DNA of 64,000 bases, from positions 124,001 to 188,000 of the forward strand of contig NZ_BCST01000004.1 in the NCBI RefSeq assembly GCF_001571005.1. Direction: 5' to 3'. The notes below the pieces were generated by a model. That model did not search any database, was not told where the DNA came from, and saw only the letters and a list, made by a program, of their open reading frames with translations. Origin of the DNA: Herbiconiux solani NBRC 106740. Its GTDB lineage: Bacteria; Actinomycetota; Actinomycetes; Actinomycetales; Microbacteriaceae. The position numbers were made by a program, and so were the translations under genes. Below are positions 15,971 to 55,855 of this stretch, piece after piece. Position 1 is the first letter of the stretch. The number at the start of each line of letters is the position of its first letter.

Positions 15971-16002
15971 GCGAGGGCCCGGTCTCTCGACCGGGCCCTC
16001 GC
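15971..16002 (-). terminator. Hairpin terminator of the first initiator tRNA gene
   Basis: Perfect 14-base arms (GCGAGGGCCCGGTC and its complement) around a four-base loop, seven bases past the 3' end of the tRNA on the minus strand, followed by a short CTTTC. The U tract is weak, so release may be partial with read-through into sufS. Confidence 0.6.
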
Positions 16003-16008
16003 CATCCG

Positions 16009-16082
16009 TTGCGGGGACAGGATTTGAACCTGCGACCTCTGGGTTATGAGCCCAGCGAGCTACCGAACTGCTCCACCCCGCG
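16009..16082 (-). tRNA. Initiator tRNA-fMet (CAT), copy 1
   Basis: 74 bases, cloverleaf intact, anticodon CAT in CTGGGCTCATAACCCAG. The first base C faces A at the end of the acceptor stem (unpaired 1-72) and three G-C pairs close the anticodon stem; both are initiator hallmarks. CCA is not encoded. Identical base for base to the copy at 17722-17795. It lies 78 bases downstream of the kinase stop on the same strand. Confidence 0.95.
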
Positions 16083-17681: not shown

Positions 17682-17713
17682 AGATCCGGTGCAGCCTCAG
17701 CTGCACCGGATCT
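17682..17713 (-). terminator. Hairpin terminator of the second initiator tRNA gene
   Basis: Perfect 13-base arms (AGATCCGGTGCAG and complement) with a six-base loop, eight bases past the tRNA 3' end on the minus strand, followed by TTTCTCGTTT. This looks like a genuine intrinsic terminator isolating the tRNA from the kinase gene. Confidence 0.75.
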
Positions 17714-17721
17714 CGTTCTCG

Positions 17722-17795
17722 TTGCGGGGACAGGATTTGAACCTGCGACCTCTGGGTTATGAGCCCAGCGAGCTACCGAACTGCTCCACCCCGCG
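17722..17795 (-). tRNA. Initiator tRNA-fMet (CAT), copy 2
   Basis: 74 bases identical to the copy at 16009-16082, with the same C1-A72 mismatch and GGG/CCC anticodon stem. Its own hairpin terminator lies just downstream, and it begins 24 bases after the hipA stop. Confidence 0.95.
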
Positions 17796-19479: not shown

Positions 19480-19495
19480 GTGCAGTATCGTGCAC
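19480..19495. promoter_or_regulatory. hipBA operator 1 (overlaps -10 and start region)
   Basis: GTGCAGTATCGTGCAC, an imperfect palindrome with 5-base arms GTGCA/TGCAC, immediately upstream of the hipB ATG. Its reverse complement is exactly operator 2 at 19520-19535, 40 bases centre to centre (about four helical turns), suiting cooperative binding by HipB dimers. Confidence 0.8.
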
Positions 19496-19513
19496 TTTAT
19501 GCGCCTCTAGCAA
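19484..19513 (-). promoter_or_regulatory. Predicted leaderless hipBA promoter
   Basis: On the minus strand TTGCTA (19513-19508) and GATACT (19489-19484) are 18 bases apart; each matches four of six consensus positions. The -10 ends six bases before the hipB ATG, so the transcript would start at or next to the start codon. The -10 lies inside operator 1, so bound HipB would block polymerase. Confidence 0.55.
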
Positions 19514-19519
19514 CACTAA

Positions 19520-19535
19520 GTGCACGATACTGCAC
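19520..19535. promoter_or_regulatory. hipBA operator 2
   Basis: GTGCACGATACTGCAC, the exact reverse complement of operator 1, lies 12 bases downstream of the UPF0182 stop codon and seven bases upstream of the predicted -35. Confidence 0.75.
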
Positions 19536-40936: not shown

Positions 40937-41012
40937 CCGGAGTAACTGCGCAAATAACGAGGACCGATGCCATATAGGGCGTCGGTCCTCGTTATTTGCG
41001 CAGAAACTCCGG
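40937..41012. repeat. Very long near-perfect hairpin between convergent genes
   Basis: Two perfect 22-base arms (40946-40967 and 40982-41003), extended inward by four more pairs and outward across a two-base mismatch by CCGGAGT/ACTCCGG, giving a stem of about 33 pairs with a six-base loop. The arms are AT-richer than the surroundings (CGCAAATAACGAGG). There is no U run on either side, so it is not an ordinary intrinsic terminator. It lies between the convergent rhlE and PHP genes. Confidence 0.85.
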
Positions 41013-52361: not shown

Positions 52362-53321
52362 ATGCCTGAAGAAGTACTGAACACGCCCACGCACGCCTGG
52401 GGCGCCGGCCTCGCGACGATCGCCTCCGACGGCACGGTGCTCGACACCTGGTTCCCGGCCCCGCAGCTCGGGCGACTGCCCTCGACGGGCGCCGCGACCG
52501 AGTCCCTCCGGGCCCACGCGATCCCGGATGCACGCCGCGCGGTCACCGTCGAGGTCACGACGGTCGAGATCGAGCTGGCCGCTCCCCCGCAGTCCACCTC
52601 GGACGCCTACCTCCGGCTGCACCTGCTCTCCCACCTCCTGGTGGCGCCGAACACGCTGTCGCTCGAGGGCATCTTCGGCCACCTGCCCATCGTGACGTGG
52701 ACGAACGCGGGCCCCGTGCATCCGGACGACTTCACCCGGCTGCGGCCGTCGTTACAGCGGGAGGGCATCCAGGCCTACGGGATCGACAAGTTCCCGCGCC
52801 TGCTCGACTACGTGACGCCGCCGAAGGTGCGGATCGCGGACTCGTCCCGCGTGCGCCTGGGCGCGCACCTGGCACCCGGCACGACCGTGATGCACGAGGG
52901 CTTCGTCAACTTCAACGCCGGCACGATCGGGACCTCGATGGTCGAGGGCCGGATCTCGCAGGGCGTCGTCGTGGGCGACGGCTCGGACATCGGCGGCGGA
53001 GCCTCGATCATGGGCACGCTCTCGGGCGGCGGCACGCAGCGCGTGTCGATCGGCCGCCGGGCGCTGCTCGGTGCCAACGCGGGCATCGGCATCTCGATCG
53101 GAGACGACACGGTCGTCGAGGCGGGCCTCTACGTCACGGCCGGCACCAAAATCGTGCTGATCGACGGCAGCGGCTCGGACGAGGAGAATCGTATCGTCAA
53201 GGCCGTCGAGCTCTCCGGTGTGCCGAACCTCCTCTTCCGCCGCAACTCCCTGACGGGCGCGGTCGAGGCGGTAGCCCGCTCCGGCTCCGGCATCACCCTC
53301 AACCCCACCCTCCACGCGTAG
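52362..53321 (+). CDS. dapD: Tetrahydrodipicolinate N-succinyltransferase
   Basis: 319 residues from ATG 52362. The actinobacterial-type DapD: an N-terminal alpha/beta domain, then a left-handed beta helix with hexapeptide repeats ([60 protein letters not shown]) and a C-terminal acyl-CoA part. It transfers succinyl from succinyl-CoA in lysine/DAP synthesis. Its stop lies 19 bases before palindrome P1. Confidence 0.95.
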
Positions 53322-53340
53322 CCTCTATCCCCACCGCGAA

Positions 53341-53388
53341 CCGTCACAAACCGCCCTTCGCGCGCCGTTTTGGGGCGGTTTGTGACGG
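53341..53388. repeat. 48-base hairpin repeat, copy P1
   Basis: Arms of 16 bases (CCGTCACAAACCGCCC pattern; perfect complement at the other end) around a 16-base loop. The reverse complement of P1 aligns without gaps to P2 (54450-54497) with 41 of 48 identities; two of the changes are a paired C-G to A-T swap at stem positions 11 and 38. It follows the dapD stop by 19 bases and the DUF559 stop by 31 bases. Confidence 0.85.
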
Positions 53389-53419
53389 CTCGCGGGGCGC
53401 GGGCGGGGAGCGCGGGAGG

Positions 53420-54367
53420 TCATGGGTGCCAGCCCCGGGAGCGGAGGGCGTTCTCGGTGCGGGCCACGAGCGAGCGGGGGCCCGCGCGCGGGGTCTCCTT
53501 CGTGGCGCGCACGTGCATCCAGCCCGCGCGAGTGATCGCCTCCGAACGTTCGACATCGCGGTAGTACTGCCGAGAGTCGGTGCGGTGCTGCTCGCCGTCG
53601 TACTCGACCACGACCCCGAATTCCGGATACACGAGATCGCCGAAGCCGATCGGCACGCCGTCGCGGTCGGTGATCCGCAGGTTGAGTCGCGGTTCCGGCA
53701 GCCCGTGTCGAACGAGGTCGAGCCGCATCGCCGTCTCCCGTGACGACTCCGCGCCGTCCCGCACGAGCTCCAGCGCCGCAAGCGCACGAGCCCGCCCGCG
53801 GCCGAGGAACCCCTGGAGTCGAGCAGCGAGCTCTGCCCGTGTGACGTACGGCCGCGGATCCTCCGGAGCACACCGTCGCGGCGTCAGCACCAGGTGGTCC
53901 GCGGCGGCGACCAACTCGTCCAGCGACAGAAGGGCAGCGATCTGGATCCAGGCGGCGACCGCATCCACCACTGGACGGCCGTCGCGGATGACGACCCGCG
54001 CATCCGGATCGTCGGTCTCATGCCCGACCACACCCCGCAGTCGTGGCCGGGTCCCGCCGAAAGCACAGACGTGGATGCGCGGATCACTCTCCACCCGCCC
54101 CGGAAGCGGCACGCCCCACAGCGCCGCCGCCGTCAGGTGGCTGAACGCCTGCGACCCGCGAAGCCGCACCAGGTACGCGTCGCAGCGGGCCTCAAGACCC
54201 TCTGGCGTCTCGCGTGCCACCGCATCCGCCCGCCGCCGGACGCCGTGGTACGGCCGCTGCAGGTCCGGCCCGCGCATCCGCTTCTCGGAGACGCCGAGCT
54301 CTCGCCCGCCCCACACCCCGAAGGGCGCGCCGACGAGCTCGGAGGGGAGGTCGACACGTCGTGGCAT
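53420..54367 (-). CDS. DUF559 endonuclease-like protein with AbiEi-like N-terminus
   Basis: 315 residues from ATG 54367 (a GTG at 54385 would add six). The C-terminal 110 residues are a DUF559/Vsr-fold nuclease domain: GAESSRETAMRLDLVRHG, then DGVPIGFGDLVYPEFGVVVE, EYDGEQHR and a late RAGWMHVRAT; the Glu, Asp and Glu-x-Asp residues match the PD-(D/E)XK layout. The N-terminal 190 residues (SHLTAAALWGVPLP, VVGHETDDPDARVV) resemble AbiEi-type antitoxin/DNA-binding proteins common upstream of DUF559. Flanked by inverted hairpins P1 and P2. Function unknown. Confidence 0.85.
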   Translation of the reverse strand: MPRRVDLPSELVGAPFGVWGGRELGVSEKRMRGPDLQRPYHGVRRRADAVARETPEGLEARCDAYLVRLRGSQAFSHLTAAALWGVPLPGRVESDPRIHVCAFGGTRPRLRGVVGHETDDPDARVVIRDGRPVVDAVAAWIQIAALLSLDELVAAADHLVLTPRRCAPEDPRPYVTRAELAARLQGFLGRGRARALAALELVRDGAESSRETAMRLDLVRHGLPEPRLNLRITDRDGVPIGFGDLVYPEFGVVVEYDGEQHRTDSRQYYRDVERSEAITRAGWMHVRATKETPRAGPRSLVARTENALRSRGWHP

Positions 54368-54449
54368 GCCCCCATAGTCGACCACCGTCTCGCCCCTCGG
54401 GCCGCCCCCAGGACTTCTGTGGAAAACCTCCGTCTCCCCACCCCGCCAC

Positions 54450-54497
54450 CCGTCACAAAACGCCCCAAAACCCCGTCGGAAGGGCGTTTTGTGACGG
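54450..54497. repeat. 48-base hairpin repeat, copy P2
   Basis: Arms of 16 bases (CCGTCACAAAACGCCC pattern) and a 16-base loop starting CAAAAC and ending GAA, as in the reverse complement of P1. It lies 82 bases upstream of the DUF559 start. Its downstream flank CTCGCGGG also follows P1. Confidence 0.85.
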
Positions 54498-54568
54498 CTC
54501 GCGGGAGTGGAGGGGGGAGAGAGCGGGGGTCGCGTGGCGGGCGCGCCCGGGAGGGCGCGGCTTGCGGG

Positions 54569-55855
54569 CTAGCGGCGCGGGAGGTCGCGCGCGGCGGCAC
54601 CCAAGTACAACTGCTGCGGCCGCCCGATCTTCGTCTGCGGGTCGGTCGCCATCTCACGCCAGTGCGCGATCCACCCGGGCAGACGCCCGATCGCGAACAG
54701 CACCGTGAACATCCGCGTCGGGAAGCCCATCGCCTTGTAGATCACACCCGTGTAGAAGTCGACGTTCGGGTACAGCCGGCGCGAGATGAAGTAGTCGTCC
54801 GAGAGGGCGACCTGCTCCAGCTCCTTCGCGATGTCGAGCAGCGGGTCCTGCACACCAAGAGCCTCAAGCACCTCGTCGGCACTCTCCTTGACGAGCTTCG
54901 CCCGCGGGTCGTAGTTCTTGTAGACGCGGTGACCGAACCCCATGAGACGGATGCCCGCCTCCTTGTTCTTCACCCGCTCGACGAACTTCGCCACACCCTC
55001 GCCCGAGTCGCGGATCTGCGCCAGCATCGTGAGCACGGCCTCGTTCGCGCCGCCGTGCAGCGGCCCGAAGAGCGCGTTGATGCCGGCCGAGATCGAGGCG
55101 AACATGTTGGCCTCGGTCGAGCCGACGAGCCGCACGGTCGAGGTCGACGCGTTCTGCTCGTGGTCCTCGTGCAGGATGAGCAGGCGCTCGAGCGCCTTCG
55201 AGAGCACCGGGTTGATCACGTACGGCTCGGCCAGGTTGCCGAAGTTCAGCCGCAGGAAGTTGTCGACGAACGACAGCGAGTTGTCGGGATAGAGGAAGGC
55301 CTGCCCCAGGCTCTTCTTGTGCGCGTACGCCGCCATCACGGGCAGCTTCGCCAGCAGCCGGATGGTCGAGATCTCGACGTCCTCCGGGTTGTGCGGGTTC
55401 ATCGAGTCCTGGTAGTACGTCGACAGCGCCGAGACGCCGGACGAGAGCACCGACATCGGATGCGCGTTGTGCGGCAGCGCGTCGAAGAAGCTCTTCAGGT
55501 CTTCGTGCAGCAGCGTGTGGTGCCGGATCCGGTCGTCGAACGACGACAGCTCCGACGGGGTCGGCAGCTCGCCGTAGATCAGCAGCCACGCGACCTCGAG
55601 GTAGGTCAGCTGCGTCGCGACCTGCTCGATCGGGTAGCCGCGGTAGCGCAGGATGCCCTGGTCGCCGTCGATGTAGGTGATCGACGACTTGGTCGCCGAG
55701 GTGTTCACGAAGCCGTAGTCGAGCGTGGTGAGGCCGGTCTGCTTCGTGAAGGTCGAGATGTCGACCGACGAGGCTCCGTCGACGCTGCGGAGGATCGGGA
55801 ACTCCGCCGTGCCTCCCGGATAGGTCAGTGTGGCCTTCTGTTCGACGTCCGTCAC
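54569..55855 (-). CDS. gltA: Citrate synthase
   Basis: 428 residues from GTG 55855 with AAGGAGG upstream. Type II citrate synthase: catalytic His in GPLHGGANEAVL, His in HEDHEQNASTSTVRL and Asp in NVDFYTGVIYKAMGF. Condenses acetyl-CoA and oxaloacetate. 90 bases separate it from the dapC stop on the same strand, so it probably has its own promoter. Confidence 0.97.
   Translation of the reverse strand: MTDVEQKATLTYPGGTAEFPILRSVDGASSVDISTFTKQTGLTTLDYGFVNTSATKSSITYIDGDQGILRYRGYPIEQVATQLTYLEVAWLLIYGELPTPSELSSFDDRIRHHTLLHEDLKSFFDALPHNAHPMSVLSSGVSALSTYYQDSMNPHNPEDVEISTIRLLAKLPVMAAYAHKKSLGQAFLYPDNSLSFVDNFLRLNFGNLAEPYVINPVLSKALERLLILHEDHEQNASTSTVRLVGSTEANMFASISAGINALFGPLHGGANEAVLTMLAQIRDSGEGVAKFVERVKNKEAGIRLMGFGHRVYKNYDPRAKLVKESADEVLEALGVQDPLLDIAKELEQVALSDDYFISRRLYPNVDFYTGVIYKAMGFPTRMFTVLFAIGRLPGWIAHWREMATDPQTKIGRPQQLYLGAAARDLPRR

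Follow-up and report, generated by a model that had tools for sequence, protein, structure and literature searches.

Palindromes of their own often bracket AbiEi-like/DUF559-like nuclease genes in Herbiconiux and related genomes and are dispersed in the same genomes

In REPtrons, the described system closest to the locus reported here, palindromes flank a RAYT gene and are also dispersed intergenically, mostly downstream of genes, and some genomes hold more than one family, with enzymes that are repeat specific, as outlined in PMC3733652. The same source says of the CGTC repeats of Alphaproteobacteria that no transposase is dedicated to them. The present locus lies in a 64-kb stretch of the Herbiconiux solani genome (the window) and resembles REP/RAYT in having an enzyme gene flanked by palindromes, dispersed intergenic copies of these palindromes, and more than one palindrome family in the window genome. 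The enzyme here is predicted to be a Vsr/EDxHD-type nuclease joined to an AbiEi-like half, whereas RAYT is an HUH tyrosine transposase; the unit is about 60 bp long with a variable center, compared with 20 to 40 bp for REP hairpins, which bear a GTAG or CGTC tag, unpaired, at one end; and, unlike in REP/RAYT, covariation between the arms is absent in three families. A search for Y1_Tnp (PF01797, RAYT type) gave no match in the window genome and matches in 5 of 14 control genomes, and RAYT was rejected as the enzyme on this ground. Because no RAYT was found in the window genome and the enzyme found here is unrelated to it, the locus is not a member of the REP/RAYT group.

Three other described systems share parts of the predicted protein. 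I-Bth0305I, an EDxHD homing endonuclease, belongs to a phage intron and targets a single gene. Its Vsr-like catalytic fold recurs in our structure model, but the gene described here is free-standing and chromosomal, carries an AbiEi-like half, and is accompanied by many dispersed palindromes. The modeled AbiEi fold likewise recalls the AbiE type IV toxin-antitoxin systems (AbiEi and Rv2827c), from which the locus differs in that the AbiEi-like half is fused to a nuclease, the sites lie on both sides of the gene and are dispersed, and no AbiEii toxin gene adjoins the window gene, whose neighbors are dapD and gltA. The additional DNA-binding half and the long palindromic partner sequences set it apart from the Vsr mismatch endonuclease. 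No description of a pairing between this nuclease family and palindromes was found in the literature searched, which lay mostly outside subscription journals and preprints.

The nuclease gene (positions 53420 to 54385, minus strand) has 321 codons from a GTG start, with an alternative ATG start at residue 7 suggested by its relatives, and is the sole gene between palindromes P1 (53334 to 53395) and P2 (54442 to 54505), the latter being inverted relative to the former. The convergent genes dapD (52362 to 53321, plus strand; Pfam THDPS_M and Hexapep_2) and gltA (54569 to 55855, minus strand; Pfam Citrate_synt) lie outside the palindromes, to the left and right of the slot, respectively. With borders set from a center-aligned profile of 215 palindromes, P1 has half-sites at about 53336 to 53355 and 53374 to 53393 around a variable center at 53356 to 53373, and P2 has half-sites at about 54445 to 54464 and 54483 to 54502 around a center at 54465 to 54482. 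Both are longer than the 48 bases that the sequence-only reading had noted, and the likeness that it reported between P1 (53341 to 53388) and the reverse complement of P2 (54450 to 54497) was reproduced when recomputed, with 41 of 48 bases identical without gaps and mismatches at positions 11, 20, 21, 22, 25, 26, and 38 of the 48. This likeness is not due to chance, because the same unit recurs at at least 28 places in the window genome.

The known RNA families matched in the 64-kb window at the gathering threshold were two tRNAs only, and the palindromes matched none. The two tRNA genes (16009 to 16082 and 17722 to 17795) have equal scores, and a short hairpin lies beside each (15971 to 16002 and 17682 to 17713). 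Elsewhere in the window, a very strong 76-bp palindrome (40937 to 41012; score, 28) is located between convergent DEAD-box helicase and PHP-domain genes; it had no further copy in the DNA stretches compared and could be a member of a third family. A 56-bp palindrome (19480 to 19535), which falls in the size class of P1 and P2, also had no copies in those stretches.

The structure model of the window protein matches the AbiEi fold and the I-Bth0305I/Vsr folds by Foldseek and by VIA-align, the latter applied to the chains that Foldseek ranked highest, and it bears out the earlier assignment of a Vsr-like nuclease domain behind an AbiEi-like half. The predicted AbiEi-like DNA-binding half spans residues 9 to 209 (53759 to 54361, minus strand), and the Vsr/EDxHD-type nuclease domain spans residues 213 to 320 (53426 to 53749, minus strand). 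Pfam DUF559 (PF04480) and MTES_1575 (PF18741) both match the protein below their curated cutoffs (16.8 versus 20.6 bits and 20.0 versus 38.2 bits, respectively). The conserved residues of the nuclease domain are S214, E217, R221, D250, E261, G264, H267, D277, and R280, and of these, E217, D250, H267, and D277 are invariant over 39 sequences. We take these four residues, on the usual meaning of the motif, to be a candidate EDxHD catalytic set. The family was matched in 76 of the 99 genomes searched, and the window genome carries a second member that is 50% identical to the first. Relatives were found in 1 of 50,697 phage records and 4 of 72,556 plasmid records; therefore, the family is mainly chromosomal, and the reading as a phage or plasmid gene was rejected. 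The only phage relative (MT837503.1, 4956 to 5957) shows 31% identity over 96% coverage and lies on a 6.7-kb record from human fecal samples.

Bracketing by palindromes is frequent in this family. Among 91 nuclease loci, a palindrome of about 60 bp lies within 300 bp of the gene on both sides in 47, on the left only in 16, on the right only in 16, and on neither side in 12. These loci were drawn from 99 genomes and include the window gene and its paralogue; 31 were taken as one per genome plus the paralogue, and the other 60 were further listed hits from an incomplete hit list, picked mostly by rank before the palindromes were inspected, with partial and some other hits skipped. The palindrome density at the 91 loci is 2.40/kb (130 in 54.2 kb) within 300 bp of the gene ends and 0.061/kb (11 in 179.3 kb) farther out, with none inside the genes. 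At 68 control loci (PiT, def, and parB), no gene was bracketed on both sides and 18 had a palindrome on one side (both-side bracketing, 47/91 versus 0/68; Fisher p = 3.5e-15), and the densities were 0.47/kb beside the genes and 0.13/kb farther out. A set of 80 named loci, obtained with an alignment query (a single-protein query gave no relatives on named contigs), covered Herbiconiux, Cryobacterium, Agromyces, Subtercola, Arthrobacter, Curtobacterium, Microbacterium, Leifsonia, Jiangella, and others. Within 350 bp, 39 of these had palindromes on both sides, 30 on one side, and 11 on none, with densities of 2.05/kb near the genes and 0.076/kb beyond. This set overlaps with the 91 loci, and 13 of its loci were set aside as duplicates in the 215-palindrome profile. 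The left and right palindromes look unlike at some of the 80 loci (L245, L248, and L257); likeness was scored in the 47 bracketed loci of the set of 91. The partnership between nuclease and palindromes, first proposed for the window locus, thus extends to the Microbacteriaceae, other Micrococcales, and one Jiangella, each with palindromes of its own lineage.

Each gene has palindromes of its own, which recur elsewhere in its genome in most of the families examined. The median local score between left and right palindromes is 36 within a locus and 7.5 across loci (99th percentile, 22), and in 42 of 47 bracketed loci, the partner palindrome of the same locus is the top-ranked one. In three of the five exceptions (L028, L029, and L035), a close same-family relative is present in the set, and in the remaining two (L042 and L108), the left and right palindromes are unlike. 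When seven palindromes, each from a different genome, were joined into one query against seven genomes, at least 330 matches were obtained, and the 150 matches listed all involved the genome's own palindrome. The counts over both strands, as lower bounds, were 87 for G022, 86 for G000, 72 for G013, 48 for G035, 14 for G003, 13 for G042, and 10 for G018, in which the matches listed fell on its own two flanks only. In the window genome, a DNA search with the P1/P2 palindrome (family 1) gave 44 matches, counted on both strands, and a covariance model built from 21 of the copies (R1) placed them at no fewer than 28 distinct sites in 15 listed slots, with clusters of two to five among them. The second nuclease gene of this genome likewise sits between two palindromes, which differ in sequence from P1 and P2 (family 2) and occur at no fewer than 24 places, the two flanks included. 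Clusters of palindromes in three stretches (L011, L012, and L019) are no farther than about 2.7 kb from a contig end (the end of C3 and the starts of C8 and C12), as if such clusters broke the assembly.

The sequence-only reading held that its proposal would be refuted by hairpin copies spread without regard to DUF559 genes, or present at similar density and position in genomes without one. Half of this was observed, as 14 of the 15 listed family-1 slots in the window genome are not beside such a gene; most REP copies, however, likewise lie away from RAYT genes. Genomes that lack the gene rarely contain this palindrome: R1 matched 30 of 99 genomes, among them 28 of the 76 in which the gene is present and 2 of the 23 in which it is not (Fisher p = 0.0097), although this co-occurrence is a weak test because R1 represents one family and the search filters were stricter with this number of genomes. 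One Herbiconiux genome (G010) lacks the gene in its dapD-gltA slot but has other family members and still gives 10 R1 matches. Dispersed copies lie mostly at the ends of convergent genes. Of 20 sites chosen from the strongest hits of the G022 family and family 2, 18 separate convergent genes and 2 separate codirectional genes, compared with a background of 30 convergent among 147 adjacent gene pairs in the window and L011 to L022 (p = 4.7e-11); these orientation counts rest on gene calls from a simple codon-score script.

The slots are filled or empty depending on the species. A dapD-adjoining nuclease gene is present in 13 of 16 Herbiconiux genomes, with gltA on its other side where the contig reaches that far; dapD next to the nuclease gene is 81 to 86% identical across 12 relatives, and gltA is 93 to 95% identical in the Herbiconiux relatives. 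G010 has dapD directly beside gltA with neither gene nor palindrome, while in G002 no dapD was found in the stretch around gltA, and G014 was outside the comparison. The slot of the second nuclease gene has no gene or palindromes in all five relatives that show both neighbors. In the parB slot, the window-genome stretch has four family-1 palindromes and the 15 other genomes have none, showing only parS-like pairs and one different 51-bp palindrome (G004). Several Herbiconiux stretches (L281, L282, L284 to L286, and L293) have such parS-like pairs close to parB, on its 3' side. The window-genome array (L017, 7044 to 7869) has spacers of about 180 bp that resemble one another, and four of the five stretches beside its palindromes are alike (scores of 35 to 72 versus about 12 for shuffled sequences); therefore, the array grew by tandem duplication of a palindrome together with its spacer.

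In the def slot, three genomes (G000, G013, and G012) carry a palindrome of their own dapD-gltA nuclease, scoring 32, 38, and 38 versus 30, 24, and 20.5 for the next-best genome, respectively. The palindromes of G006, G015, and G005 in this slot match no Herbiconiux nuclease flank compared (maximum scores of 12.5, 13.5, and 16.5, respectively), and those of G015 and G006 (L264 and L269) are a common palindrome of 75 to 83 bp. The gap in G007, G010, and G014 contains nothing of that size, G001 has a 41-bp hairpin, and the remaining four genomes have other neighbors or spacing. Of the eight other species read in the G022 genus, one (G101) has slot s2 filled, and slot s3 contains the G022 family in G101, other palindromes in G099, G103, G104, G107, and G109, and no palindrome in G106 and G108. 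The exact borders or a target-site duplication could not be placed, because the flanks of the empty slots are too diverged.

The geometry of the unit is steady, whatever its sequence: two half-sites of about 20 bp surround a variable center of about 16 to 18 bp, and most units are 50 to 70 bp long. In the center-aligned profile of 215 flanking palindromes, pairing is 74 to 95% from 9 to 28 bases off the center, 25 to 67% within 8 bases, 54% at 30 bases, and about 30% beyond 33 bases; because the palindromes were picked for pairing, the limits of this profile are more telling than its level. The distance between the arms of family 1 is 36 in 21 copies, though 20 to 70 was permitted, and two longer pairings each join an arm to a neighboring half copy. 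Family 1 (21 copies, 64 columns), family 2 (13 copies, 60 columns), and the G022 family (15 copies, 60 columns) align without gaps in frames cut around the palindrome center.

The arms do not covary. Arm pairing in the 21 family-1 copies is 85.1%, the same as in shuffles (85.1%), and double changes number 7 versus 8.6. A second covariation test gave p = 0.50 for family 1, 0.65 for family 2, and 0.92 for the G022 family, and the ratios of single-arm to paired double changes are 62:7, 21:3, and 23:3, respectively. A base-paired hairpin under selection was therefore rejected, since covariation did not exceed that of shuffles in any of the three families. The joint change of stem positions 11 and 38 from C-G in P1 to A-T in P2, which had been put forward as proof of a maintained stem, is real, but it does not serve as such proof, and the folded hairpin as the form that is recognized finds no support. 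Since covariation is absent, the arms read as a pair of half-sites on the DNA duplex and not as a hairpin under selection; they behave as two separate candidate binding sites for one protein, and the anatomy of the unit supports recognition of the duplex by a dimer. EDxHD enzymes dimerize on nearly 60 bp, as described in PMC3943268, a target that the palindrome unit of about 60 bp fits by length, and AbiEi proteins bind 23-bp inverted repeats, according to PMC7319586.

A prediction fixed beforehand was that in G101, G109, and G099 the palindromes seen in the slots would also flank the nuclease genes. It held at the family level for G101, whose slot palindrome scores 36 with the flanks of the G101 gene but 40 with those of the sister species G100 and 38 with those of G022. 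The success in G099 was indirect, its slot palindrome matching the flanks of the gene in its sister G104 (36.5). The nuclease relative in G099 is in two pieces with the middle missing (L370 and L383), and a palindrome like the G104 flanks persists elsewhere in that genome. The prediction failed for G109, in which the only gene found, at a contig end, is flanked by a different palindrome. For the s3 palindromes of G103, G104, and G107, which were outside the prediction, no matching flank was found (scores of at most 12). Codivergence of protein and palindrome received no support: the Mantel correlation is near zero for the 13 orthologous loci (r = -0.04, p = 0.53) and weak over 47 loci (r = 0.10, p = 0.03). 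The few pairs of proteins that are more than about 70% identical have similar palindromes, whereas those below 60% mostly have different ones; the divergence measure may be saturated.

We lean, with moderate confidence, toward the explanation that gene and palindromes together make up a single self-spreading element, REP/RAYT-like in its mode of work, with an unrelated enzyme, a nuclease of the homing endonuclease type. Binding, cutting, and spread by the protein are what we infer. The protein would bind the duplex palindrome as a dimer, one AbiEi-like half to each half-site, and the two Vsr/EDxHD-type nuclease domains would cut or nick the variable center. Repair of the cut, or the joining of cut palindrome ends to breaks elsewhere, could then copy the palindrome-gene-palindrome unit elsewhere, the bare palindrome presumably being copied into new places more often than the whole unit, and the copies would persist chiefly in the gaps between convergent genes, as the least harmful places. 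Against this reading, a nuclease alone leaves insertion at palindrome-free sites unexplained, 12 of the 91 genes have no palindrome, some slots hold orphan palindromes, the pairs at L042 and L108 are unlike, nuclease and palindrome divergence hardly correlate, the slot prediction failed in G109 and held only in part in G101 and G099, and the copies listed for G018 are its two flanks alone. The gap in explaining insertion also speaks for an unseen transposase that spreads the palindromes, with the nuclease gene merely one of its cargoes, since the nuclease fold alone has no assignable insertion activity, and for several slot palindromes no matching nuclease flank was found. We nevertheless regard such a transposase as improbable: Y1_Tnp, the one transposase family searched for, has no match in the window genome, and the bracketing of a single gene family in many lineages by differing palindromes is unexpected for a passenger.

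The positions of the dispersed copies could also be explained if the palindromes were selected by the host as protein-bound insulators or bidirectional transcription stops, with the AbiEi-like protein as their binder and with ordinary mutation and selection accounting for their spread. The placement of 18 of 20 dispersed sites between convergent genes (versus 30 of 147 adjacent pairs) and the own-family palindromes of three species in the def slot fit this explanation, but relatives often have the conserved slots unoccupied (none of 15 other genomes has family 1 at parB, and one of eight other species has s2 filled), and the candidate catalytic residues are conserved although pure binding would not need them, so that we consider it rather unlikely. 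A narrower role, in which the flanking palindromes are AbiEi-type operators of their own gene and the dispersed copies are incidental targets, draws on the self-regulation of AbiEi antitoxins via 23-bp inverted repeats in the promoter, as given in PMC7319586, and on the palindrome found directly upstream of the gene at many loci; the additional downstream palindrome in 47 of 91 loci and the dozens of copies at the 3' ends of unrelated genes make autoregulation alone very improbable. Least probable, and in our estimate remote, is a restriction system in which the nuclease attacks incoming DNA while its own palindromes soak it up or mark self. The nuclease fold is related to Vsr and to some restriction enzymes, but the defense-model match of the window protein is weak (PADLOC mREase_II, E = 0.046), and its neighbors in the window are dapD and gltA, with no methyltransferase.

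The self-spreading element, if taken further, would amount to a new class of selfish DNA, in which AbiEi-nuclease fusions spread their own dimer site of about 60 bp in the form of scattered miniature palindromes. A genome would hold more than one such enzyme-palindrome pair, each independent of the others, and the pairing would turn over quickly between species; we advance this tentatively, at close to an even chance. A large DUF559-like/AbiEi-like family gains a testable DNA partner, as each bracketed gene names its own candidate target. If the protein spreads the palindromes, REP-like repeats would arise through a homing-type nuclease as well as through HUH transposases, and if it only binds them, it would be a regulator with an unusually large number of sites where convergent genes end. 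In both cases, the loci offer dozens of natural enzyme-target pairs in which specificity has changed, for the study of how DNA recognition evolves. If the new selfish class is real, it would be a second, independently evolved counterpart of REP/RAYT and might explain palindromic repeats that have no known transposase.
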